From Cladochytrium replicatum (lineage: Eukaryota; Chytridiomycota; Chytridiomycetes; Cladochytriales; Cladochytriaceae): 64,000 nt of DNA. The position numbers and the translations under genes were made by a program. Of the stretch, positions 9,098 to 54,738 are shown in pieces. The DNA is taken from contig JAHLKD010000077.1 of NCBI GenBank assembly GCA_025526935.1, positions 229,589 through 293,588 of the forward strand, written 5' to 3'. Each line of letters opens with the position of its first letter. Position 1 is the stretch's first letter. The notes under the pieces are model-generated. The model made no database searches. It saw nothing but the letters and a program-made list of their open reading frames with translations, and was not told the origin of the DNA.

Positions 9098-11665
9098 ATG
9101 CCGGACACGTCGGATTCCGACGGAGACCTTGAAGACTCTCCCAGGAATTCGAAGGACAAGAACAAGCGAAAGAGAATTACACAGGCGTGTGATGCTTGCA
9201 ACAAAAAGGTAAGTTCCGCCGACCCTGCTCCCGCGACCCGGAATCCAATTAACCGATGCTTTCCCACCATTCAATTCCAACCAACCTTGGCGACCAAAAG
9301 AAAGTGAAATGTGATGGTGGAAAACCAACATGTGGACATTGCTCGAGGATTGGTCAAGCGTGCTCTTACTCCCGCGGTGCAAAAAAGCGAGGGCCGCGAG
9401 CCGGCTACATTGAGACTTTGGAGAACCGCCTAAAAGAGATGGAGTTGCTGCTGAATGCACGCCAGATATCTACAGGCGAGAGTATCGCTTCCTCAGACGA
9501 TGCAGATATCGCAGCTGCCAGGTTAACCGCGCTTCGAAGGCGCCAAGTTTCCAGCACGCCCACTGCGAGTGCGACGGGGATACCAGATTTTGATGTAAAC
9601 GGAACGGGGAAGCAGGCAGGATTTGGCATGGATGAAGCTACCCCGCCTATCAGCTCTGCAGCTTTTGGGGCAGACGGTTCGAGCTCATCGCCAGCTTTGC
9701 CTCAGGAAGTGCTTGACGATCTGATTACTTTGTTCTACGAATATTGCGATCCGTTCTTCCCACTCCTAAACCAGCACAATTTCAGGAAAAAAATTCGGCT
9801 GCACTCCCCTCTTCTCCTGAACGCAATCTACGCTCTGTCTGCTCGCTTCTCGACACATCCCTTGGTCCTGACCAAACCTGACCAGCCTTTCGCAAGTGGT
9901 GATGTATTTTACATGCGAGCGAGGGAGCTTGTTGACCATTACATGGACTCCCCAAGCCAATCCACAGTTACCTCACTTGTTATGCTGGCAACATATGCGG
10001 CGGGTTCTGGGAGAGGTGTGGTTGATATCCAGAACATACTATTTCCACAGTTTTTTATTTGAGTCTCTTCAGGTTCTGCAGCATGGATGTATTCCGGAAT
10101 GGCAATCCGAATGGCACAAGAGCTGAAGCTGAACGTCGAACCAGAATTTGAAGAATCGTCGAGCAGCCGGCACCGGACTGATTCTCTGGAGATGGAAGAG
10201 CGGCGAAGGCTATGGTGGTGCTGCTACATCCTCGATAGATATGCCGGGGCCGCAGCGGACAGATCCATGATTATCAACGAAAAGGACTGCAGGGTTTATC
10301 TGCCATGCCCGGAAGACGTGTTTCAAGCGCTTGTTGACGATGAAGAGGCCGAACAGCGTGATCAGCCGAGTGCTACTGCAGCCGCCTTTGCCCACAACGA
10401 ATCTTTCCAAATCGCTGTTCTTACTTCGACAAACATGTTTACACCGGGGATGCCGCATCAGAACTCGACTGGGTATTATATACTGCTCACAAAAATTTTC
10501 GGAAAAATCGTAGAGTACTCCAATCAGCACAAGATGATGAGTCCGCGCAATGGCCATCAGCAGGTTACGGATGGACATAGAGCACAGGCCGTTGCACAAG
10601 GGCGAAGTTTCCCGGCACCTCTGGATGCGGACTACCAGTTATCCGTACTTGATGCTTCGCTTCGAGATTGGATGTCTTCCCTTCCTGACTACATTCGGAA
10701 TGTGGACGATGAATTCACGGTGAATCATAACCCCGATTCAAGTGCCGCATGGATCCCGCCATATCTTCATATTTATTATCACACCTGCGTTATCCTTCTT
10801 CATCGACCAAAGATGATGGGACTGATTCGGGACACGCCGGAACAAGTTCGTTACTCATCGTGCTTCAAAGCGTGTCGCAGTGCCGCTTCAGAAATTTGCA
10901 ACCTTATCGAGAAAGTCATGAAGTCGAATCCGAACTGGAACTACATATGCCCATTTGTGGCATTCTGTATATTCCAGAGTGGGTTGATCCATGTCATGTC
11001 GGCGCAAATGGTTGAAGACGACTCGAGCTCTATTTCACGTTCAAAAGTTGAGATTCACGTTCGAGCTCTCGGTGCTATTGCACGATACTGGTTCATGGCA
11101 GGGAGGTTACACTCCGTCTTGGCATCTTTAATTGAGACAATGCGATCCGATCTTTCGGCAGCAAGGCTTCCTGGGCGCCCTGAGCTCACTGTTCCGACCC
11201 AAGCACCACCAGTTACGACGACTTCTCACTCGTTTATGAACACAGCAGTGCTACGGTACAACTCCATGGACGGAGGAGACCTTGCTCGCCCTGAGCCTAC
11301 TGAACCTAGCAGGATGGTGATGGAAACTGCGTCACCAGGCGTCGCAGTAGTTGGAGGTGTTCCATCGTGGGGCCCCTTTAGAGACAAGTTCCTGTCATCA
11401 GCGATGATCGGTGACGCCTCTGCAGGAATTCCGATGGCCGGTGGGCTGCAGCACCAGCAGTCGAACGTTCGTGGAATACCTCCCCTTTCTTCTTTCGTGC
11501 TTCACCCGCAAACCACGCCCTCTGGTACCGGCACAATGGGAGCACCGTTATCAATGAATGGGGTATGTAACGGCTTTATGAATCTGTTGATTCCTACTCA
11601 CGATATTCATTCAGGATAATTGGGCGTCATTCAATGGGCAAGAGAGTGGTTGGAAGGGTTACTGA
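9098..11665 (+). CDS. Zn2Cys6 fungal transcription factor
   Basis: Exons 9098-9208, 9301-10015, 10073-11562 and 11615-11665 give 788 aa. The zinc cluster has the exact spacing C-X2-C-X6-C-X6-C-X2-C-X6-C (residues ~31-58), split by the first intron within the Lys run. A basic linker (RGAKKRGPRAGYIE) and a short coiled coil (LENRLKEMELLL) follow, as in Gal4-type dimers. The middle contains the fungal_trans domain (YCDPFFPLLNQHNF, AAWMYSGMAIRMAQELKL, RRRLWWCCYILDRYAG). The C-terminus is Ser/Pro/Thr/Gly-rich, possibly activating. It binds DNA as a nuclear regulator; targets cannot be told from sequence, and neighbours give no pathway hint. Confidence 0.92.
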
Positions 11666-21069: not shown

Positions 21070-21598
21070 TAAGGTTTGGCACTAGGTCAGGTCCGGGTTA
21101 GAGAATCGACCCGAAAATAACCCAAATGTCAGGTCGTGTATGTCCATGGACATCACTGCATGTAGCAGCACCAAACCAGGACCGCAGTTATTGAAACCTG
21201 TACTTGATCCTGACCCTGTCCGTTTTGCGTTTTAACTTGAAATAGGAGAAGGTAAAACAAAATGTCGATTGTGTCTTCTTGGAAAGTGTCCGCGTGGACA
21301 GAAAGTGCAGCTCTCAAGGTCTGTTGTGGGTAGAAAAAATTTGTTACAAAATGTTGATTGTCATCTTGGAAAGTGTCCGGGTGGACAGAAAATACAAATG
21401 GCTTTCTTCTATCTTTTCTTATAAGGTCAGGTTTTACACGGGTCTAAAGCTTGGCCCGAGAAGGGTTTTGCTTCTGGACCCGATACCTGACCCGGATCCG
21501 ACCTGAAAAACTTTCCTGAAAACCCATCTATCGGATTGGGTATATTTTGTCAATGGACCCGAACCCGACTGGAATACTCAAAAACCTGCCGATCTTTA
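21070..21598. mobile_element. short non-autonomous hAT derivative (MITE-like)
   Basis: Begins TAAGGTTTGGC and ends in the inverted form gccgatcttta, the same ends as the 24253-30718 element. Inside it holds the acccgacccgg-rich end segments and two copies of the GTCC-NNNN-GGACA motif (about 21284 and 21370). It has no coding capacity. Flanks agtagaac / agtgagca could be a mutated 8-bp target duplication, as expected for hAT. Confidence 0.7.
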
Positions 21599-23321: not shown

Positions 23322-23393
23322 AGGTGGCTACGAGAATTGAACTCGTGACTTCTTGATCTGCAGTCAAATGCTCTACCACTGAGCTAAGCCACC
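23322..23393 (-). tRNA. tRNA-Cys (GCA)
   Basis: 72-nt cloverleaf on the minus strand. The acceptor GGTGGCT pairs with AGCCACC, discriminator T (typical of Cys); D arm GCTC/GAGC; anticodon stem TTTGA/TCAAG with loop CTGCAGA, anticodon GCA; T arm ACGAG-TTCAATT-CTCGT. No intron. A TTTT stretch follows ~10 bp downstream on the minus strand. A and B boxes look intact, so it is probably functional. Confidence 0.9.
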
Positions 23394-24252
23394 TTTAATG
23401 CTCTTTGTTTCCTTGTGCCTGTTCACTGCCATGATCATTTGCACCTCACCTCCGGTTATCCATCGCAACTGTGAGCCTTGTACCCCTGCTGCCCTTCTTT
23501 TCACCTCTGCTCCTCTCTCCCTCAGCTCTCCATTGACCCTCTCACCTGCTTCTCTTCTGAGCAGTCTGCTGACTAGCAGGGGCTACTCCTCTGCTCATCC
23601 CTTATCTCTCTCACTTGCCTCTGCTCTGCCTTCTGACTTTGCAAGTTCCCTGACCTTCCTAAAGTGCTCTGCACTTCTATTGCGCTCCCTTTCTGCTCTC
23701 TCCCCTGCTACCCTCAACCCTGATCTGCTTCCAACTCTCCCTGCTTCTCCTCCACATTTACACGTCGCTGCCACCTGTACCCTTGGTGCCACCAACACTG
23801 CCACCAGCACTGCCCCTGGTGCCACCCACACTGCCACCACCACTCTTGACAGTTCAGCCACCTGCTCAGCCCCATCTCCAGCCTCATCACCTGCCACCAA
23901 TCATTCCATGAATGAGCTTACTTGTTCGCACTTCCTCTTGGACGACCTGCTGACCTCGCATAGAAGCTTCAAATTTGTCAAAGAATGTGCCGAATCCTTC
24001 ACTACTCTCCGATTTTCTGGTTTTACTCGTCGCCCAATCAGGGACCTTCGTGTGTTGCTTCGCAAAGATCTTCCGTATACCGCTTACCATGGCATCCGCT
24101 ACATCTCATTTCTTGGCTCTGATTCTGTTGAATTTCTTTGTCGTTCTTATGCTGCTGATCTGATCCGCAAACACATACCTGGTCGAGAAATCACTGATTT
24201 GGATGTGTCCCCTCCTTCGTATTCTGACAGTTCCGACTCTCTGCAACGCTAT
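23394..24252 (+). mobile_element. half-LINE copy, 3' truncated by hAT end
   Basis: Starts immediately next to tRNA-Cys. One open frame, 23398-24252 (285 aa): a Leu/Ser/Ala/Thr-rich N-terminal half and a C-terminal block (FTTLRFSGF, YHGIRYISFLGSDSVEFLC) shared with the ORF1 of the LINE at 33003. It is cut at 24252, exactly where TAAGG begins; the copy at 31724 continues past this point with gactctctgc. Confidence 0.8.
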
Positions 24253-24425
24253 TAAGGTTCGGCGGGTCCGGGTCGGGTCCGGGTTTCAGTGGCGACCCGC
24301 ACCAAACCCTTTGGGTCGGGTCGTGTTTGTCTGGGGACCCGCCGGGTCACTGACGGGTACAAAGGGAATACCCGGACCCGAAGTGGTTGAAACCCGTACC
24401 CGACCCTGACCCGCCGGGTTTTTGC
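24253..24425 (+). repeat. left terminal inverted repeat, GGGTCGGG-rich
   Basis: Starts TAAGGTTCGGCGGGT, rich in gggtccgggtcgg and its complement. Pairs with 30545-30718. Confidence 0.75.
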
Positions 24426-24552
24426 TGCCCAGGAGAGGATTGATTGAATTTTGAGTTAGACCACGGATATTTACATGAACACTTTGTGTCTGTGTGGACA
24501 GTGTGTATTTTAGAAACACTATCGTAAAAAGAAACAAAACTCCACTGAGCAA

Positions 24553-25188
24553 TCACAAGTTGATAGGTGGAACAGCCCAAATCAGCTTCTGTATCTGGTT
24601 CATATCGTCAGAGTCCCATCCACCACTGGTTACGTCCTTCGCCAACCCAGTCCTGATGAACCGATCAATGTCGTCATTTGAAAGCATGAAATCCTTGGCT
24701 AAACCTGTCTTCCAAGGTTTCCAATCCACCTCAGGGAGCGTTATGGACGAAAGATGCCCGATGTATGCCGTCCAGAACCTTAGCCACTCAGAAGGATATG
24801 CATCCACTAATGCCCTGAACATGCGATAGATAGTGGCAGACGTACTTAGCGAATTATTGTGCCGTATCCAGTTTCCGAGCAAAATGTGCACCCTAAGAAG
24901 AGTAAGGCTGCTCCGAGAACTGCTACTTGAAGTTGATATTCGGCTTGAGCGGTCGTCTGATTCAACAAATATGGGCCGTAAAAACTCATTTCGGGAGAGG
25001 ACTTCGTAGTTTACATTGACGTACTTGATTGCTGGTGGAAGAGACGGCAATTTAAGGTCATAAATAACCTCATTGATCTTATGCATCTGGAAGCAGATAC
25101 CCTGGATGACCTCTTTCACCAAAAGGATAGCCGTACGACGATGCTGCTGCAGGCTAAGCAATGTTACTAGCAATAAGATTCTGTCCAC
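24553..25188 (-). CDS. hypothetical ORF inside hAT element
   Basis: 211-codon open frame whose first ~15 codons (VDRILLLVTLLS) are the repeat unit itself, so it is either spliced, 5' truncated or not a true start. The remainder looks protein-like: AIKYVNVNYEVLSRNEFLRP, a Ser run, LLGNWIRHNNSLS, YPSEWLRFWTAYIGHLSS and an acidic SGGWDSDDMNQIQ end. No family recognised. It may be cargo captured between the left end and the repeat array. Confidence 0.4.
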   Translation of the reverse strand: MDRILLLVTLLSLQQHRRTAILLVKEVIQGICFQMHKINEVIYDLKLPSLPPAIKYVNVNYEVLSRNEFLRPIFVESDDRSSRISTSSSSSRSSLTLLRVHILLGNWIRHNNSLSTSATIYRMFRALVDAYPSEWLRFWTAYIGHLSSITLPEVDWKPWKTGLAKDFMLSNDDIDRFIRTGLAKDVTSGGWDSDDMNQIQKLIWAVPPINL

Positions 25189-25790
25189 CCGGACACTTTC
25201 TTAACTCATTGACGGTACTTGAGTGATCTCTATCAAGTACAACTAACATCTCTATCAATGTTACTAGCAATAAAATTATGTCCACCCGGACACTTTCTCA
25301 ACTCATTGACGGTACTTCAGTGATCTCTATCAAGTACAGCTAACCTCTCTATCAATGTTACTAGCAATAAGATTCTGTCCACCCGGACACTTTCTTAACT
25401 CATTGACGGTACTTTGAGTGATCTCTATCAAGTACAAACTAACATCTCTATCAATGTTACTAGCAATAAGATTCTGTCCACCCGGACACTTTCTCAACTC
25501 ATTGACGTACTTCAGTTATCTCTACCCAATACAGCTAACCTCTCTATCAATGTTACTAGCAATACGATTCTGTCCACCCGGACACTTTCTCAACTCATTG
25601 ACGTACTTCAGTTATCTCTACCCAATACAGCTAACCTCTCTATCAATGTTACTAGCAATAGGATTCTGTCCACCCGGACACTTTCTCAACTCATTGACGT
25701 ACTTCAGTTATCTCTACCCAGTACAACTAACCTCTATCAATGTTACTAGCAATACGATTCTGTCCACCCGGACACTTTCCAAGAAGTCAC
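25140..25790 (+). repeat. tandem ~97-bp repeat, seven units, forward
   Basis: Units marked by ctgtccacccggacac recur at 25181, 25278, 25375, 25474, 25570, 25666 and 25760 (spacing 94-99). Each contains caatgttactagcaata and ctcaactcattgac. The core TGTCC-NNNN-GGACA is a small palindrome. The array ends ~110 bp before the transposase start. Confidence 0.95.
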
Positions 25791-25899
25791 AACGGAAGTT
25801 CTGTAACAAACAATTTCTACCACGACAGACCTCGAGAGCTGTGCTTTCTGTGCACCTGGACATTAGAGTCGGTAACGTTCCAGCCACACCACAGCAAAA

Positions 25900-28336
25900 A
25901 TGGACGCCGCCTTTGTTAAACCAAAGCGTAAGGCAGCGTCCGACGCAAGCCAAAGACTAGTGGACAGTCATCCGCTTGACACACGGAAGCGAAGTCTGCC
26001 AGCCCCCCAAATTTCAGAGGCGTCCAGCGAGGGGAACATCATGCAGGACAAACGCAGACGTGTATCAGGACACTGTGGCAACAACAGCGCTCGAGAGCCG
26101 AGCTCCACATCTTCTTCCAATGACTCCAGCGAGTTGGGCCCGGCTTCTCAGCATGCACCACAGCTTCCTGCCGACGTTAGTTTTGCTGACTCTTCAGTGC
26201 GACAGGAGCCTGCAGCTGGATCAGTTCAACCATCAATGCTTTCATCAGACGCAGATGTTGATAGCATGTCGGACTGTAGAGGTAGTCGAGGCGGCATAGC
26301 GAAGGATTACTATAAGGTTGATAATGGTCTGAGAACATGTTTGGTTGCGAAATGCAAGTGGAGCCAGAAGGTCGATAAGACGGGATCAACAAAAAACTTC
26401 CTCCGGCATCTGAAAAACCACCATGGAAGTATTGCCAGGTCGCTTGGACTGTTGGACATCGTCCCCAAGGGACAACAGACATTGAATTTCGGCTCGCAGG
26501 AGAAGGAGCAAAACTTTGTGTTCAATCCAGACGTAGCGTGGCGGTCGATTTTGGACTGGATTGCTGCAGACAATCAGGCTTTTACTGTTGTGGAGAACGA
26601 GTTCTTTGTCAGCATGCTGAAGACTTTTCAGCCAAACTATACACCAAAGACGGCAAAAGCAGTGAAGCAAAAGGAGATGGATCTTTACGATAGGCAGAAG
26701 GAGCTCATTAAAGGTCTGATTGTTGGTTCGCCTTCAAAAGTATCAATAACAGCTGACTGTTGGACATCGAAGAACCAGATTTCTTTTCTTGGAATTACTG
26801 CCCACTTCATCACGAAAGAATGGGAGCCGCAGGACTTGCTGCTGCAGATGATTCCGATGGTTGGAAAGCATGAAGGCGTCGCCATGGCTAGTCAGCTTGT
26901 CAAGTGTCTGGATGAATTTGGCATGCTATCGGGTGAACGCTTATTGTGCATTACAACCGACAACGGTTCAAACAACTTTACCATGAGTGCTAAGCTGGAG
27001 ACGCTCTTGGAAGATAGGGATATTGCGTGGTCTGCAGAAACTCAACACATGCGGTGTATGGCACACATTATCAATCTTGCAGCAAAGGATTTTATCGATA
27101 CATTCGCGCCCGCAGGGGACACAGTCGCAAATGACGATAACTCCGGCGTTAATGTCATAAACCTTCTTCGACGGCTAGTCAGAGGAATCCGGTCTTCCCC
27201 AAAACGACGAAGCTCATTTATTGATTCGTGCCGATTTGTGAAACTGGTTCCTCTATTACCAATTATCGATGTGACAACTCGCTGGAATAGCACGTTCTAT
27301 ATGGTCAAACGAGCCTTACAGCTACGAGAGGCAATGGACAAAATATGCTGGATTGAAGATTCTTTGAAAGATTGGTCAATAAATCCAAAGCAATGGGAGG
27401 TCCTACAGAAGATCCGGGATGGTTTGAGTGTTTTCGAGGTTATATCAAAGGCAATCGAAGGGGTCTAGATATCCAACACTTCCGCTTGTTATTCCATTTT
27501 ACAACGATCTTATCGATCAACTGGAGGACCTAGAGGATGCAGAATTAGATGAAACTTTCACCAAAGCATTTCGAAATGCACTAGATAAGCTGAGAATATA
27601 TTACTCAATCGCTAAGAGCCCGTGTTTAGCAGTTGCTACGGTACTCGATCCTCGTTTTAAGGATCAATATTATCGATTTTCAAAGGCTTGGGAGAAAGAT
27701 GTAGGAAGGGATCAGGTCACCCTAGTGCGGAAAGTCTGGGAGGAATCGTATAAGTCACGGAAAATCAAGAACAGTGGTGCCGATGTTTTTGGAAACACGC
27801 CAGAACGTCGACACGATTCGAGCGGAGCTTCCGGTGATAGACAGAAAAAAACAGACGCTGAACGCTTGAGAGCCATTAGATCCGTTTTCATCTGGCAAGA
27901 AGAGATTCCTGAGGAAAAAGATGAGCTGGATCGCTATCTTGGCGATCAGGTACTCCGCGGTATTGATTCTGATGGGAAGCCAATCAATATTATGGACTGG
28001 TGGAAGACCGTTGGAAGTGTGAACTTTCCAGCCCTAAGCCAGATGGCAATGGACTATTTAGGAATACCAGCAACAAGCGCTCCAGTCGAACGAAAGTTTT
28101 CAGCCGGGGTTGATTTGGTACCTGCAACTCGCAACCGCCTTGCTCCAAGAACAATAAATGCGTTGATGTGCCGTCATGACTGGTTGCATCAATTGAGTGC
28201 TGAAGAACCGTTCAAAAATGATTCCCTAGATTCAAAAAGTGATGTTAGTGAGGATTTTGTAAAGGTGCATAATTTTGGCGAGGATTTTGATGTGGTATTA
28301 GAGTTGGAAGCAACTGATGATAACCCACTCTTTTAA
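25900..28336 (+). pseudogene. hAT transposase, one-base frameshift
   Basis: First frame 25900-27468 (522 aa), second 27428-28336 (302 aa). A BED-type zinc finger lies near residues 140-175 (CLVAKCKWSQK, FLRHLKNHHGSI). Then come the RNase-H-like core (VSITADCWTSKN, GERLLCITTDNGSNN, MRCMAHIINLA, DVTTRWNSTFYM) and the C-terminal hAT dimerisation domain (DELDRYL, DWWKTVG, YLGIPATSAPVERKFS). The break is in a GGGG run at about 27461-27464; one G fewer would give EGSRYPTLP and a single ~800-aa protein. No other lesion was noticed, so the loss is recent or a sequence error. It would cut and paste elements bearing these ends. Confidence 0.9.
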
Positions 28337-28369
28337 ATATAAATTGTTGTTTAGACTGTTCATGTGTTG

Positions 28370-28945
28370 AAGTACCGTCCAGGAGTTGAGAAAGCGACCG
28401 CCTGGACAGAATCCTATTACAAGTAGTATTTGTAGAGAGGTTGGTTGTACTTGATCGAGATCAGTGAAGTATCAGTGAAGTACCGTCAATGAGTTGAGAA
28501 AGTGTCCGGGTGGACAGAATCTTATTGCTAGTAACATTATTAGAGAGGTTAGCTGTACTTGATAGAGATCACTGAAGTACCGTCAATGAGTTGAGAAAGT
28601 GTTCTTAGCCGGAATGTTACAGGAATGTATGCTATAATACTTCCCTGACACTATAGTTTTCTACCCGATCTGAAAATAATAATAAGCTAGGGAAGAAACT
28701 GGCTAGTAACATTGATAGAGAGGATTCTGTCCGGGTGGACAGAATCCTATTGCTAGTAACATTGATAGAGAGGTTAGTTGTATTGGGTAGAGATCACTGA
28801 AGTACCGTCAATGAGTTGAGAAAGTGTCCGGGTGGACAGAATCCTATTGCTAGTAGTATTTGTAGAGAGGTTAGCTGTACCTGATAGAGATTACTGAAGT
28901 ACCGTCAATGAGTTGAGAAAGTGTCCGGGTGGACAGAAATCTGGG
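28370..28945 (-). repeat. inverted copies of the ~97-bp repeat
   Basis: Reverse-complement units (gtgtccgggtggacag) at about 28391 (degenerate), 28499, 28725, 28826 and 28919 mirror the forward array on the other side of the transposase gene. Together they place inward-facing repeats around it. Confidence 0.9.
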
Positions 28946-29226
28946 AGACTGAGTGTCACTGTGTCTGTCTGGGTAGAATAGGATTCTGTCCCCCCGGACA
29001 CTTTCTCAACTCATTGACGGTACTTCAGTGATCTCTATCAAGTACAGCTAACCTCTCTATCAATTTTACTAGCAATAAGATTTCTGTCCACCCGGACAGA
29101 ATCCTCTCTATCAATGTTACTAGCCAGTTTCTTCCCTAGCTTATTATTATTTTCAGATCGGGTAGAAAACTATAGTGTCAGGGAAGTATTATAGCATACA
29201 TTCCTGTAACATTCCGGCTAAGAACA
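28601..29226. repeat. large inverted repeat (fold-back structure)
   Basis: The outer arms 28601-28740 and about 29087-29226 are near-perfect reverse complements (gttcttagccggaatgttac ... gtaacattccggctaagaac). The inner part holds ~97-bp units pointing at each other around a ~45-bp centre (28940-28984). The RNA or single strand could form a long hairpin. Confidence 0.85.
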
Positions 29227-29265
29227 CCGGGCCAGTATCTTCCCACGACAAACAGTACAAACACC

Positions 29266-30378
29266 ATGCCTCGAACTACAAAGAAGCGAGCGTTAAAACA
29301 ATCCAGACCATCATCTGAAAGAGAATCAAGTGCAGAACCTGTGACTGCACCTGAAACATCTCTGGCATCGGGTTCTGAAGTGGAAGCAGAAGAAGTTGGC
29401 CTTGATGTCAAATCGACAGATGTCAAATCGACAGCTCCTTCAAAGAAACCGGCGCGACGTGGTACTAAAGGGGATGCTGACTATTTGCTCATCGACGGAC
29501 TCTGTCCTGCTTCAGACATACGACTTTGGTATCGAAAATTCAAAGCGAGCGGCCACAGCTACGACTCGGAGGCCTTCATCAGCAACTGTCAAACAAATCG
29601 TGATGAATGCGGCCCAAGATTTGTTCTTCAAGGGTTGATCGACCGACTTAACTCTGACAGCAAGCTAGTTCGTCAAGCCCTGAACGAAATTCACGATGAA
29701 TGCAGTGGACGAACGGAGTTCATAACAGCAGCAAACGCCTATCGTATGGAGTGCTTGAAAAGCTCTTCCTTTCAGAAGGAAACAACATTTCTGGACTTTT
29801 ACAGGCGGCAGGGACACAAGTACGGCATTTACAGAGGAATGCCCGTCACTGCAAAGGTTGATGAGTTCCAAGCGACCATCAAACGAGCAGATGAGGACCG
29901 TGAAAGGACAAAACAGGTCCTCAAACAGTCAGAACGACTGTTGAACATGACAAAAGATCTTGAAGAGACTGCAATGAACGAGAGAAGGACCCGCATCGCA
30001 GCAGAAGTGCGAGAGAAGGCTCTCATTGATGAATTGGGCAGGGCGGGTGCATTGATTCAGCACGGCGAGCACGAAGAGCTAGCAAGATTCAGGGAGATCA
30101 CCGCTGCAATGGAAAGGGAGAAGCAGGCAACTTCCCAGGAGATTTCACAATGGAAATCACATGTGACCGCCCTGGAGGGAGAGCTTGCTGCTCTGAAACG
30201 ACAGGCTGGTCATTCAGAAGCTGCAGCACCTGCGGCGCCAACATCAACAGGCGGCCTAATAAGCATATCGTCGGCTATCAAGGGGATTGGTAGAATTCCG
30301 AAGGTACATCGAACCAGTTCTCCAACGAGTTCCCTTGCATTGATAGAGAGGTTAGTTGTATTGGGTAGAGATAACTGA
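29266..30378 (+). CDS. hypothetical coiled-coil protein in hAT element
   Basis: 370-codon frame starting MPRTTKKRALKQSRP, 40 bp after the palindrome. A Ser/Glu-rich, Lys-rich start is followed by a folded-looking part (YLLIDGLCPASDIRLWYRKF, ECGPRFVLQGLIDRLNSDS, ETTFLDFYRRQGHKYGIYRG). Next comes a long coiled coil (residues ~200-315: RADEDRERTKQVLKQSERLL, ITAAMEREKQATSQEISQWK). The last ~13 residues are read from the ~97-bp repeat, so the original 3' end is probably lost or spliced. No family recognised. Intact and long in a decayed region, so it may be a maintained accessory gene. Confidence 0.55.
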   Translation: MPRTTKKRALKQSRPSSERESSAEPVTAPETSLASGSEVEAEEVGLDVKSTDVKSTAPSKKPARRGTKGDADYLLIDGLCPASDIRLWYRKFKASGHSYDSEAFISNCQTNRDECGPRFVLQGLIDRLNSDSKLVRQALNEIHDECSGRTEFITAANAYRMECLKSSSFQKETTFLDFYRRQGHKYGIYRGMPVTAKVDEFQATIKRADEDRERTKQVLKQSERLLNMTKDLEETAMNERRTRIAAEVREKALIDELGRAGALIQHGEHEELARFREITAAMEREKQATSQEISQWKSHVTALEGELAALKRQAGHSEAAAPAAPTSTGGLISISSAIKGIGRIPKVHRTSSPTSSLALIERLVVLGRDN

Positions 30379-30510
30379 AGTACGTCAATGAGTTGAGAAA
30401 GTGTCCGGGTGGACAGAAAATACATGCCTCGATGTCCGTTGTGATGCAAAATTGTTTGATACATACAAAACTTATATTGCGTCTTCTTGGAAAGTGTCCG
30501 CGTGGACAGA
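30340..30510 (-). repeat. two further ~97-bp repeat units
   Basis: gtgtccgggtggacag at about 30399 and the variant gtgtccgcgtggacag at about 30491, between the second ORF and the right terminal arm. The variant also occurs in the short element at 21284. Confidence 0.85.
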
Positions 30511-30544
30511 AAGAACAATAGCTTCGTTTTAGATTCTCTATCAC

Positions 30545-30718
30545 ATCGGGTTTTACTCGGGTCTGACTTTTGACCCGAGAAGGGTTTTCCTACTGGACCC
30601 GATACCCGACCCGGATCCGACCCGAAAATTTTCCATGAAAACCCGGCACTCGGGTCGGGTACATTTAGTCAATGGACCCGGACCCGACCCGAAAGACCCT
30701 AAAACCCGCCAATCCTTA
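30545..30718 (-). repeat. right terminal inverted repeat
   Basis: acccgacccg-rich arm ending ACCCGCCAATCCTTA, the inverted form of the left end. Confidence 0.75.
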
Positions 30719-31285: not shown

Positions 31286-31723
31286 TGTTGAGTGTTGTTT
31301 CGTTCATAAAAGTTTTCCTTCTTTGTTTTTAGTTTCAAAAGAAAAAGTTCAGCTGAGGATAACAACAGGATTATTGTTGATCCTCGGAATCGAACTTGCG
31401 ACATGATGTTGAATGGCTTGTGGTTTAACCCACGACGCTAGCTTTGTTGTTATCCAAAATTTTCATTCTTGTTTGTATTTCGGCTTCATGTTCTTCGACA
31501 AAAACTTCAAAAGCCAGCGTTCCAGAAAATTCTGGATCACCAGCAAACTTGAAGGGGACTTACCAAAGGAGGAAGGAGAGCGCCGCTGCTGACGTGGCAA
31601 GGACAAATTAAGGGAGGCTTTGTTGGGAATGGGAGAACCTATAAAAGGTGTGAGTCTTAAGCTTCCAATAAATTGAACAAGTACCTCTTATCTGATCTTA
31701 CCTGCCTACGACAAAATTCTACA
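31286..31723 (+). repeat. 3' LTR of third Copia family
   Basis: Follows a purine tract (acgggggag); starts TGTTGAGTGTTG and ends ttctaca (TG...CA, 438 bp). Contains tataaaagg near 31641 and aataaa near 31669. Half-LINE sequence resumes directly after it, so the element had inserted into that half-LINE; its 5' LTR is gone. Confidence 0.75.
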
Positions 31724-32875
31724 CTCTCCATTGACCCTTCTGAGCAGTCTGCTGACCAGCAGGGGCTACTCCTCTGCTCATCCCTTATCTCTCTCACTTG
31801 CCTCTGCTCTGCCTTCTGACTTTGCAAGTTCCCTGACCTTCCTAAAGTGCTCTGCACTTCTATTGCGCTCCCTTTCTGCTTTCTCCCCTGCTACCCTCAA
31901 CCCTGATCTGCTTCCAACTCTCCCTGCTTCTCCTCCAGATTTACACGTTGCTGCCACCTGTACCCTTGGTGCCACCAACACTGCCATCAGCACTGCCCCT
32001 GGTGCCACCCACACTGCCACCACCACTCTTGACAGTTCAGCCACCTGCTCAGCCCCATCTCCAGCCTCATCACCTGCCGCCAATGATTCCATGAATGAGC
32101 TTACTTGTTCGCACTTCCTCTTGGACGACCTGCTGACCTCGCATAGAAGCTTCAAATTTGTCAAAGAATGTGCCGAATCCTTCACTACTCTCCGATTTTC
32201 TGGTTTTACTTGTCGCCCAATCAGGGACCTTCGTGTGTTGCTTCGCAAAGATCTTCCATATACCGCTTACCATGGCATCCGCTACATCTCATTTCTTGGC
32301 TCTGATTCTGTTGAATTTCTTTGTTGTTCTTATGCTGCTGATCTGATCCGCAAACACTTACCTGGTCGAGAAATCACTGATTTGGATGTGTCCCCTCCTT
32401 CGTATGCTGACAGTTCCGACTCTCTGCAACGCTATGACTCTCTGCTCCATCGAAGTGCCAAGGCGATTGCTACTACGTCTGAGCCAGTTGTTGCATTGTT
32501 CTACCGCAATCTTGTTGATCCGTCTCATCTTTCTACGCTGTTGCATCTTGCTCGATTATTATGCCCCTTTGATGACCTCAGCTTCTGACCTTCGTTTGAC
32601 CCAGTGATTTGCTCTTTGCTGTTATATTCTTCACATTGTTGAGTGTTCTTTCTTTTCTTTATCCCTCACCTGTATTTGACACCTGAGCAGAGCCTGACGG
32701 GTAGTCACAGGAATGAGTTTTTAAGATCTCAGATTTCTATTTCGCTTTGTCCTCCGACTTGCGCGCTTCCCTATGTGCTGGTCCATGACCATCTTGTAAG
32801 GCACTTTGGGTGTTGTTTGTTGTTATGCATTGTATGTGCAAATAAATAAATAATGTTGTTCAAAAAAAAAAAAAA
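31724..32875 (+). mobile_element. half-LINE copy with 3' UTR and poly(A)
   Basis: The open frame to 32588 (ends FDDLSF) is nearly identical to the copy at 23394 but its 5' end was removed by the Copia LTR. It is followed by ~270 bp of 3' UTR with aataaataaataatg and A14 (32862-32875). Only an ORF1-like protein is encoded: no endonuclease or reverse transcriptase lies between ORF and tail. The degraded copy at 19812 has the same layout. Confidence 0.85.
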
Positions 32876-48932: not shown

Positions 48933-49582
48933 TGTTAAGTATTTCGATTGATGGACTTGGCCAATCCAGTCATTGATAGTACAAAAACACAAACGCCCGA
49001 TATACAGAAATGTCACTCTTCACTGAGCAACATTTCTAACTATTGAACTAAAGCATATAGATGATGATCTATTACGAGTTTGGATACCTCCGGTTATTTC
49101 TTCATGGGTTATATTTATTGCAGCCATAGGTATAGTAAACTGTCATTACTTTTCTATCATCCACTTGTAGAAGTGAAGCCCGGATCAGATCACAGCAAAG
49201 GTTTACATATGATTAACGCGTTCGTGGGAATCATGTGTGAGAACAATCCTGTTGAGGAGAGCTAGATCTCACGCACAGCTTAGCATGATTATGCTTCGCT
49301 ACGCCTGTGAGAAGAAGAGTCAAACCTTATCGCTTCGATCCAGATCTTCCGGAAGGAAAAGCCAAAACGACAGTACACTTATTTAAGGAGCCTGTGGCGA
49401 TACACACAAGGAGCATTCTCTTGCGCTAGTACTTGTGACTCGCAATCTTCTTTATTCATCTCTTAGAAACATTAACCCGTGAATTAGCAACACACACAAC
49501 CTGAGGATCCAGACCACAGCTTTGTTCAACACAATAGTTACGAATCGTTGCTTAACACATTTCTTTGGACAACAACGACAAG

Positions 49583-52500
49583 ATGGGTTCAGGATCGAAT
49601 GACACCACATCTTCGCGGCCGAAGCCATTCACCGGTAAAATGCTGCAGGATTTCGATCTGTACATGGAACAAGTGCAGACTTACGCAAACTTACGTGGCG
49701 GCGCTGGCACTATGCTTCTCCAAGAACCAATGGCTCTTCCTGATAGTCCGAATTACGAGGCGGAAGGAAATTGCCCACAGCGTCCGATAGTCATCGCCGG
49801 AGCTGCTGGCGGAGCTGCTAACGAAGCACGAGCACAATGGGAAGCAGAACTACGTGAACATTTGGCGATCGTCACACACAACAGTCACTTACGTACGCAA
49901 TATCGTGCTGAGATGCAAGATTACCGTGCACAACAAGCGGACAATAACGTCGCAGTTGGAATTCTATGCGAATGTTTCCCAAAACGCGACATGAATCGAG
50001 TCAGAGCTTATGCGTCAGCAAAAGGCAAAGTCGATGGACTTCGCCGAATTTTCAGTGCTGGCGGTCAAGCTCCGATCGAATCGTCTATGTGGGAGCAACG
50101 GCTAGTAGATCTGAAATGTACGAACGGTCAGTCGGCAGAAAGCGTTCAGCAGTTTGTGACCGACCTCACTGAGTTATTCGAACTCAAACTGAACTCTTTA
50201 CCGGACGAACTCGTAATCAAGGATCTACTAAACCGGTTAGTCGCAAAAATCACGATGCAGACAATTGAACTACGGACCCTCGTACCTTTTCTCGGAAAAA
50301 TGATCACTTCTGCGTATGCCGAATGGGAACCGGCGTTAATACAAGATCCAATTGATGCTGCAAATCCGAATGCTCCGCGACCATTCCACCAAAAGCCAAC
50401 GCATTACTTCGAAACAGTGTCAAATATCTTGACCGACCTCAACCAATTGGTCCAACTCAACGTCACCATGGATGCCGGTGGGCCGAATGGGACAAAGAAG
50501 GCCATGAAGGCAAAGGCGAAGAAAGCGAAGGCGAAAGCGAAAGCCAAGGTTGCGAAGTCGGAGGATATTTGTACCTTGCATCCGAACTCATCTCACACCA
50601 ATGCTCAATGCCGTAAGCAGGGTGCCTCGGGTGGCTCAGGCAGTAGCGGTGGGAGTAGCAGTTCCACTCGGACCAGGCAGTCGCAGGACTCCAGGTCGTC
50701 CACATCTTCTTCTGCAAAGAAGACAGATCTCACATGCAATTTCTGTGGCAAACGAGGACACAAGCAGTCGGCGTGTAAACGCTATCTCACTGCAAAGAGT
50801 CTTTGTTTAGACACGGATTTTCGTGCATTCATTGCCAGCCGTGGCGATGCAGGTGATGATTCGTCGGAGGACGAATCTACCGCCAAACCGGTGCTGACCA
50901 AGAAGGTAATCTTTGACCTTACCCAACCTACTTCTGTTGATAAAGATGCTGACACATACATCGGAAATATGTTTTCGATAGTGAACGCACACTCGGCACA
51001 GAAGGTTGTCCGTGTACATGTTCAAGCAAAGGATCGTGTGGGTTTGCTTGATACAGGCGCAACTGTTTGGATGACACCTAATCGTCATGCCTTTGGTTCG
51101 CTGACGTATACGAATGACGAGGACGTGGTGGAACTAGCGGATAGTCATACAATTCCAGTTTGTGGTTTTGGAGATGTATCTGTAGTTTTACCCAATGGGC
51201 GAATTAAGATAATACACAACGCACTTTATGTTCCTGATCTCGAAGACACACTTGCATCAGTGTGTAGTATCATTGGAGACTCCGGGGACATTGTGAGTTT
51301 CACCAAAGACAAGGTTATCCTCACGCATGGTGATACGGATGAACACGTTATTATTGGGCGACGGGAAAGAGATTTGTACTATCTCTATGCTGATGTTAGT
51401 ACCGTCGGAACTCACCAACCGCGGCATGCGATTGCTCAACAAGCTAAAGCAGTAGCGGTATCCGCAGAAGGTCTCGATCAGTCGATGGACTTTACGTCCG
51501 GTGTACGATCTTCTCACGCGATGGGTCTCGATGTAATGTCAGACAACAACATTCGTCAAACGAACGATGATGAATGTCAACGAGCATCTCAAGATACAGT
51601 TGGAGTGAGCACCAACTTATCGCCAGTGACAGTACACGAACTTGCAAAGTTACACCAGCAGTTTGGTCACATCCACTTACGGACGATCTTTCGAACGGCA
51701 GAGAAGCTCAACATCAAAATGCCCAAGATTGAACCGGATGCATTCAATCTTGTCAACAAATCAATTATGCAGAATTGTTTGGTCTGTAGTCGCACGAAGC
51801 TGAAGCAGAAGCCGATTTATTCTACAATAAGTCGAGCTCCGAGGAAACTTTTCCGTCTGTTTTCCGATGGCGTACGTTTAATCTACGACGGACAGAAGAA
51901 GAGATATTGGCAGATCATTGTCGACGAACAACCTCGTTTCATCACTATCTACTTCCTGAATCGAAAGAGTGATGCGGTGGATAGTATGATTCGACATATC
52001 GCTGATGTGGAAAATCGCAATCACCCATTACACGTTGCTGAACTACGTTCCGATTCAGGAGAATTGATTACTAAACGGTTGATCCAATGGTGCAATACCA
52101 AGATTCCTCGCATCCGCGTCCACCCAGCTCCTCCGTCAGTAAAGGAGCGGAATATACAATCGATCAAGTATATGTCGGACGCGATGCTGCTACAAGCTGG
52201 ACTACCACGAACACTTCAATTCGTGCAACTCTCCATCCTATACGCTGCGGTCGTCAAGAACGCTACTTTCCATTCAGCTGTGAATGCGATTCCGTACTGT
52301 GCTTACCTTGACAAGCGGATAGATTTGGCAACTATCCACGCCTTTGGAACACTCGTTAGTTTGTGGATCTCACACGAACAAAGGTTGGCGCGCAGAATCC
52401 GAGACAAGTCTGAACTAGGTCTGTTTCTCGGATACAAGGGTGAAGACCTGAAGATCGTCATAGCACTCAATTTTCGGACAAACACAATAGGCGAATACTT

Positions 52501-54738
52501 CCATGTTACGTTCCACGAGGGAGTTTTTGTTGGTTATAATCCTACCCGACAGTTACTCGACGATCTTACGGTACAATATCCACTGAAGGCCGGGACATAT
52601 TTCGATGTTGATCAAATACCAACCGGGGATCAGGGGGTGCAAGAGACGACTGTTGAGTTTGTCTCAGACAATTTCCCGATTTCTACCGTTGCAGACGAAG
52701 AAATCGATGAGGATATAAACGACGACCCCATATATTACCGCTTAGAAGAAGCCGGTGACATGCATGTTGTTGAACATTTACATGGACTAGACGATGATGA
52801 CCCAGACGATGCTGATTATGATCCAAATGCTGATTTATCGACTCCACAATCCATTACTGAAGAATCTCCGAATTTGTCTTCCGTATCTCCTGTAGAGGAA
52901 TATGATGCACAACTCGAAAGTGATCTTCAATTCATTGGAGAAGATGTCGACGAAGCGTATGCAGCAAGAAAACGAAAACGTCAAGCAAGTGCAAATTTGT
53001 CGAACGCCAAAAGGAAACAAAATTCCTTGTTTACCCGGTCCGTTCCTAATATCGATTGGACCCTGAAGGCCGATTCCTCATATCCAACACAACCAATTGC
53101 GAATGGAAATATACGGACTGCACCAAAGACTCTTCGTGAGGCTTTATCACGATCCGATGAGGCTCCATTCTGGTTAGCGGCGATGAAGGAGGAAGTTCAC
53201 ACAACTAGTCGGCAACAATACTTGGGCCGAAACGTTTTTACCTGATGGACGGAATTTATTATCGGGCAAATGGGTTTTCACATATAAGCTTGACGAACAT
53301 GGCAATATTACTCGATTCAAAGCACGTTGGGTCGTACGAGGATTTTCACAAATTGAAGGATTGGATTTCGATGAAACCTATTCTCCAGTTACGAAAACGT
53401 CCACGATCCGTTTTCTGATTGCATTAGCAGCATTAGTCGGCATGATCATATTCCAGTTTGATATCAAGGGTGCATATCTCAATGCGATACTGGAAGAAGA
53501 GAACTACGTCGAACTCCCTCATGGTTTCGGACGAGTAGATTTCCAGAATCGACCCATCGTCTGCAGACTTATCAAAAGTCTGTACGGTCTACACCAGGCA
53601 GCTCGAGAATGGTACAAAACTCTTTGGAAACAATATCTCAGTGTTGGTTTCGTGCGGAATATTGCAGACATCTGTCATTTCTGGCGATACAATCCAACAA
53701 ATAATACCCGCGAACACACTACCGTTCATGTCGATGATATACTACATTTTTCCACAGATCCAAACGCATATCATCGGTTTCAGACCGATTTGGAAACTTC
53801 GTTCACAGTAGGCAGTACTTCGAAGGCGAAATGGATTCTGAAAATGGAGTTATTGCAGACAACGGAAGGATATTTCCTTAGTAATGCATTGTTACGTAAA
53901 GAAGATTCTCGAAGAAGCGAATTTATGGGGTACCAACATCAAACCGACCAAAACACCGATGTCAAAATCATATATCTTTGATGAGACCACACCAACACTG
54001 TCCGATGCCGAGGCAACACAATTTCGATCAATGTTAATGAAGATATCGTACGTGGCGACTAAGACACGACCGGATATTTCATACGCAGTCAATATTTTGG
54101 CACAACATCAGATTGATCCTCGACAGTCAGAATCAAAGGCTCTCTATCGATTACAACGATATTTACTCGGTACTTGGGATTACGGTTTACACTATACACG
54201 GACTGGTATCACGTCTCCGATGCTAAGACCCGACGGTCTCTACATGTTTGATTCGGCTAACAACCCACAAGGTTATGCCGATGCAGACTGGGCGGGCGAT
54301 GCAGATAGATACTCACGAACCGGTTACGTGGTAATGTTCGCTAATGCGGCAATCAGTTGGCAGTCGATTCGACAACAGACTATTGCAGCCTCGTCGTCGG
54401 AAGCCGAACTGTATGCGCTGAACGAACTATCGCGTGAGATGAAGTGGATGAAAAATCTTATGACGGGTATCGGAATTACGTCGTTCAATCCGCTCCGTTT
54501 ATGGCAAGACAATCAATCCACCGAGTCTATCGCAAGCAATCTGTTCAACAACAAACGGACCAAACACATGGACGTTCGCGAGAGATTTGTGAATCTCCAA
54601 GTTGAACAGAAACATCAGGAGTTACACCATATGGATACTTCTGATATGATCGCGGACATCTTAACTAAACCTCTTGGAAGTAAATTATACCTTAAACACA
54701 GGGGCTCGTTAGGGGCTAGTCAGTCAGTCTTCACTTAA
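49583..54738 (+). pseudogene. Copia family 2 gag-pol with two frameshifts
   Basis: The first frame runs to 53245: Gag, knuckle CNFCGKRGHKQSAC, protease LLDTGATVWMTPNRH, integrase HHCC (LHQQFGHIHLRT, CLVCSRTK) and core (VDEQPRFITIYFLNRKS, ELRSDSGELITK). RT follows (TKTSTIRFLIALAAL, GAYLNAILEEENYVELPHGF, HVDDILHFS), then RNase H (GYADADWAGD, SSSEAELYALNELSREM, DMIADILTKPL) to the stop at 54736-54738. Compared with sister copies it has one extra T near 53197, one extra T near 53892, and an in-frame 18-bp loss near 52145 (SVKERN versus SVEELDGLSERN). Otherwise full length, about 1700 codons. Confidence 0.92.

Follow-up and report, generated by a model that had tools for sequence, protein, structure and literature searches.

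The analysed window, a stretch of 64,000 nucleotides on contig C77 of the Cladochytrium replicatum genome (50.5 Mb, 198 contigs), contains a whole but rearranged copy of a hAT element at positions 24253-30718, as found from its ends and by mapping its segments against six other copies. The TAAGG ends that the first-pass annotation had placed at 24253 and 30718 were borne out to the exact base. The copy is oriented with the canonical right end at its left side and the canonical left end at its right side. The right end (TAAGGTTCGGCGGG..., 24253-24460, minus strand) is 99.5-100% identical to the right ends of five copies. The left end (30521-30718, minus strand, closing with ...CCAATCCTTA) is 97.5 and 98.5% identical to those of two copies and 100% identical to that of a third across the 156 bp present there. 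The motif ACCCG/CGGGT was counted 15 times in the right end and 14 times in the left end, where its frequency in the remainder of the window would predict 0.16 per 200 bp. From left to right, the interior comprises a degenerate palindromic core with one mismatch (TGTCTGTGTGGACA, 24487-24500, 234 bp from the right terminus), the C-terminal part of a second gene (24553-25163, minus strand), the left breakpoint of an inversion with CAATG microhomology (25159-25163), array A with seven forward 97-bp units upstream of the transposase (25182-25774, plus strand), a further degenerate core immediately upstream of the transposase ATG (TGTGCACCTGGACA, 25849-25862), the transposase gene (25900-28336, plus strand), a remnant of array B with inverted units and, at its end, forward and hybrid units (28361-29100, minus strand), the N-terminal part of the second gene (29266-30337, plus strand), the right breakpoint with CATTG microhomology (30338-30342) and the last array unit core together with the terminal core (TGTCCGCGTGGACA), the latter 210 bp from the left terminus (30402-30508, minus strand). 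The copy also contains a 146-bp inverted duplicate (28599-28744) that is 100% complementary to 29082-29227; of this pair, the six other copies hold only 29082-29227.

The transposase, 811 aa long in intact copies and searched with the frame of one of these, matched Dimer_Tnp_hAT (PF05699) at an E-value of 2.2e-20, past the cut-off, and hAT-like_RNase-H below the cut-off. Its match in the PDB was to Hermes chains (2.3e-12), with residues 694-759 as the only aligned part, and candidate DDE motifs in the 811-aa frame were picked by eye. A C-x4-C...H-x3-H pattern was likewise read by eye near 26340-26430, where the Pfam BED family gave no match at E up to 1. All Pfam matches were to hAT families, and neither a P-type (THAP) nor a Mutator transposase was matched. 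The frame is broken in the window copy, which reads 522 aa and continues in another frame after a frameshift; in the six other copies it measures 811 aa in four, 522 aa in one and 419 aa in one. The terminal inverted repeats of hAT elements are short and of the YARNG consensus type, and the repeats found here, TAAGGATCGGCGGG and TAAGGTTCGGCGGG, fit it. With its dimerisation domain, 8-bp duplications and short terminal inverted repeats, the element is a member of the hAT superfamily.

The two open reading frames beside the transposase, earlier taken for two genes that could be accessory or cargo, turned out to be one 560-aa gene split by an inversion that was seen once. The parts at 29266-30337 (plus strand) and 24553-25163 (minus strand) form a single frame in canonical copies, by which two unrelated reading frames are ruled out. 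In the window, the stretch that begins in the second gene and runs to array A is inverted and CATTG is found at both junctions; the window copy probably originated by an inversion at this 5-bp microhomology, which array A and the second gene have in common. A recurrent inversion switch was considered and rejected, as the window junction occurs once genome-wide versus 247 times for the canonical one. Among the 30 best-scoring loci, which include the window copy, 19 have the 560-aa frame intact. We found no family above the cut-off for the second protein in Pfam and no relative in the PDB (best E 0.86), and a search of viral contigs returned relatives of neither this protein nor the transposase. 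Single-sequence fold models of the two parts were poor (mean pLDDT 57 and 40), and their sole credible stretch is a predicted long central coiled coil. As a gauge of purifying selection on the gene, changes were classified among 20 distinct copies (24 sequences, with four loci entered twice); 8 of the 23 distinct changes are synonymous, versus 28% expected from the codon table.

A target-site duplication is lacking in the window copy, whose flanks read AACGCTAT on the left and CTGACAAC on the right. Its left flank is a coding-like repeat (23383-24252) with nearby copies at 31737-32435 (98% identical) and 20908-20230 (83%), and Pfam returned no match for 23383-24255 or 31677-32588. The right flank reads by eye as the RNase H end of a copia-like element, for which Pfam gave no match. 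These flanks could stem from recombination between two insertions or from misassembly. Elsewhere in the window, a gene with Zn_clus and Fungal_trans domains (9253-11619) marks the DNA as fungal, and the half at 35170-63944, in which several copia-like polyprotein frames were recognised by eye, is rich in retroelements; the one such frame tested (49556-53245) gave a Pol_BBD match.

Exact markers of the element were found across the genome in large numbers: 247 for the second gene, 177 for the transposase start, 190 for the left end and 192 for the right end. Out of 454 second-gene candidates, 40 were scored, and these copies show 99-100% identity across 1055 bp; the family appears to have amplified recently, in a burst. 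Six further copies, five chosen from second-gene matches and one from core matches, were read over 7.5-8 kb each. The canonical order is a left end (TAAGG, with many CGGGT motifs over about 200 bp), the terminal core, array A in forward orientation, the transposase gene, array B in inverted orientation, a few forward or hybrid units, the 560-aa second gene and the right end. Arrays surround the transposase in 7/7 copies read (the window copy and the six others), three of which are flanked by perfect 8-bp duplications (L038 read whole, L039 and L040 nearly whole), in agreement with the earlier description of a hAT element with the arrays as an integral part. L038 measures 6719 bp between the duplicated TCTTTAAT. 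Both ends could be compared in 18 copies, and in 12 of them the 8-bp target duplication is perfect, which around a whole element is the mark of cut-and-paste insertion; the flanks of the other six agree at no more than 4 bases. Element order was also assessed for 75 of the 100 left ends listed, namely those on contigs that were also covered by the second-gene listing (the last of the 75 sits just beyond it). A second-gene marker lies downstream on the same strand for 45/75, at 4.4-8.4 kb for 39 and at 1.3-2.1 kb, too short a distance for a transposase, for 6, and is absent downstream for 30. The distances in the 39 are consistent with a conserved element order, and we regard the family structure, with high confidence, as well supported.

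Several irregular copies were observed as well. In 4 of 28 copies (L018, L028, L030 and L008/L037) the right end adjoins array sequence of another copy, and the three of these tested at both ends (L018, L030 and L008) lack a duplication, which suggests recombination or aberrant transposition at the arrays. Elements with two left ends were rejected as mobile units, since of four such pairs three have no duplication and one is an inverted duplication that includes the flank. The left ends at C34:7402 and C34:10465 face outwards and have mirror-image host flanks; this pair is either an inverted duplication or a foldback produced by the assembly. In two cases, C14/C58 and C100/C191, copies on different contigs have the same flanks (TTCCGGTC; CTCAGTGGTTGC...), a hint of haplotigs or duplicated segments, in which case the copy counts would be too high. 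Two points count against the interpretation given below: 6/18 copies are without a duplication, and copies so alike are prone to misassembly.

The arrays are built around a palindromic core. We confirmed seven exact forward cores in array A at 25182-25774, with spacings of 97, 97, 99, 96, 96 and 94. Inverted cores are indeed present on the other side of the transposase (28503, 28825, 28922, 30402 and 30495), but forward or hybrid units lie there too (28728, 28987 and 29085), so that this side does not form a single clean inverted array. Similarly, the TGTCC-NNNN-GGACA pattern is real but its centre is not free in the arrays: 2690 of the 3502 core sites in the genome (1288 + 1402) are TGTCCACCCGGACA, with ACCC at the centre. 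The pattern does not arise by chance, given the 3502 sites genome-wide versus 23 for the reversed pattern, and the 20 matches at up to one mismatch in the window versus a mean of 1.84 after shuffling. For conservation, array units were picked by an anchor outside the core, which gave 148 hits; 11 were set aside (8 that were not units, 2 that are one base out of register but have an exact core and 1 with a base inserted in the core), and the core is exact in 133 of the 137 in-register units. Over 37 distinct units, the mean identity is 0.994 in the core versus 0.938 elsewhere (permutation P 0.049), a marginal signal of conservation, and windows overlapping the 3' flank of the core are conserved equally or slightly more. 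The motif CGGGT is centred in 12 of the 13 exact cores of the two array stretches, and is lacking in the terminal core and one array core. This overlap with the ends is weak evidence, as a random 97-bp unit holds CGGGT in about 8% of cases and the units are of one origin.

Array A was found to vary by whole units. The 64 distances from left end to ATG form a ladder of approximately 97-bp steps with a mean residual of 0.06 unit; calibrated on L038, 23/64 fall in the nine-core class and 5/64 above it. Differences of whole units are what one expects of unequal exchange or of slippage during replication. The 30 distances from ATG to second gene span 3.6-7.3 kb and agree less closely with whole units (mean residual 0.12 unit), which indicates that the array B side varies widely and that some copies are otherwise deleted.

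A 529-bp non-autonomous derivative is found in the window at 21070-21598, composed of about 190 bp that resemble a right end, two cores and a left end. The core had been noticed in it before, and is present twice, at 21287 and 21374; the derivative thus retains the two ends and two cores, and the array is absent. The segment between these cores resembles the transposase leader (25757-25861), the segment of the degenerate core at 25849-25862, and also the segment from the terminal core to the array. All 40 derivative candidates that were scored, out of 585, matched, and the unscored ones may include ends of full elements. The derivatives are more diverged, the majority base averaging 0.91 per position over 30 copies. 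In these 30 copies the core is no better conserved than other sequence, 225 and 353 of 499 equal-length windows being conserved as well as the two cores, and selection on the core was not seen. The derivative family spread with two cores and without an array, so the arrays are not needed for mobility, and this spread, together with the unremarkable core, weighs against an essential role of the arrays. There may also be short forms that have several units left: at C1:214699-214994 and C1:443059-443448, four and five cores lie beside a left end, and near both there was no transposase start or second-gene marker among the matches listed.

The reading that we favour, somewhat above even in our estimate, is that the arrays are expansions of an ancestral two-core module and that the cores bind the element's own protein, the binding being deduced from sequence. 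The ancestral state would have had two cores between left end and transposase start, as still seen in the short derivative, and in the simplest case the arrays grew between these two. Each core would be a putative binding site for an element protein, most likely the transposase, possibly joined there by the coiled-coil second protein, and extra cores beside the transposase start could improve recognition of the ends, regulate the element's genes, or both. In favour of binding sites are the conservation of the palindrome and its 3' flank, which rank with the best conserved stretches of the unit, the CGGGT common to ends and cores, the core near each terminus, and the two cores retained by the derivative, along with the likeness of its inter-core segment to the transposase leader. 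Against them are the internal position of array B, far from both ends, and its poorer fit to the ladder, the terminal core without CGGGT, the spread of a derivative family that has two cores and no array, and the derivative cores that are not specially conserved. The first-pass proposal of expanded transposase binding sites is plausible. A more tentative reading, which we consider doubtful, is that of a recently active two-protein hAT in which both proteins would co-assemble on 15 or more palindromic sites per element, with array length as a tunable control of transposition or expression.

It is fairly unlikely, in our view, that the arrays are instead promoter or enhancer monomers setting transcription, by analogy with the tandem monomers in L1Md promoters (PMC6454616). 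Array A adjoins the transposase leader, forward units precede the second gene too and the leader resembles the inter-core segment of the derivative, all as this would have it, but array B points the opposite way, into the 3' end of the transposase, and transcription alone leaves the core near each terminus and in the gene-less derivative unexplained. Unlikely as well is that the arrays are neutral and functionless, a by-product of unequal exchange that homogenises itself and is carried along by a successful element. The ladder of array A, the wide variation around array B and a derivative that does without arrays and whose core is not specially conserved would all be expected then, whereas retention of the arrays around the transposase in all seven copies read and a palindrome among the best conserved parts of the unit would not. 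Chance nesting of unrelated sequences, highly improbable, fits only details of the window copy (the split second gene, the inverted duplicate at 28599-28744 and the two unlike flanks) and, where the family is concerned, is refuted by the architecture that recurs in the six other copies compared, the marker distances agreeing in 39/75 left ends and the 8-bp duplications that flank elements.

The element has several features in common with known hAT elements like Hermes and Ac/Ds, i.e. the dimerisation domain, 8-bp duplications, TAAGG-type ends, ends of about 200 bp packed with a short motif and short internally deleted derivatives; unlike them, it carries a second gene and has 97-bp units repeated in long internal arrays. 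En/Spm is a two-protein DNA transposon and PIF/Harbinger has been described with two ORFs; a transposase accompanied by a gene for a second protein is common to these and the present element, whose second gene, unlike theirs, is without a relative in Pfam, the PDB or the viral contigs. In Ac the repeated motif is instead the hexamer AAACGG, situated in the terminal 200 bp, which have been reported as necessary for full transposition (PMC3260210). The first-pass statement that no hAT of this design had been described agrees with the open-licence literature searched (titles and starts of abstracts), where we found no hAT with long internal arrays and a second gene.

Comparable tandem repeats are also found outside the hAT superfamily. 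Galileo, of the P superfamily in Drosophila, has internal tandem repeats, some of which hold extra transposase sites according to binding assays (PMC3688188), so that the concept is already known. Internal tandem repeats are common to both elements, with a site content that was assayed in Galileo and is proposed from sequence here. Galileo, as described there, has a THAP/P-type transposase and its repeats lie inside long terminal inverted repeats, whereas here the element is a hAT and the arrays mirror-flank the transposase; long terminal inverted repeats of tandem units of the foldback/Galileo type are absent, the right end having no array. The authors of that paper knew no fully functional Galileo sequence (PMC3688188), whereas intact frames exist here. 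They also suggested that a long transposon may make up for the cost of its length by having several binding sites in its long repeats (PMC3688188). What differs from Galileo, as far as it is described there, are thus the hAT setting, the mirror placement around the transposase and the second gene. Tetris, a foldback element of D. virilis, shares with the present element tandem repeats that vary in number and have sequence in common with an end segment (PMC4079207); unlike the present element, it is non-autonomous, its transposase was not known and its authors suggested Mutator (PMC4079207).

If the two-protein reading were true, the element would be the first known autonomous hAT whose repeats follow a Galileo-like design. 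One fungal genome here offers numerous copies that are almost identical and in part have intact frames, together with a natural ladder of array lengths and a derivative that lacks arrays, which would make the purpose of the arrays a directly testable question. The second gene, present across the burst, poses a question separate from that of the arrays.
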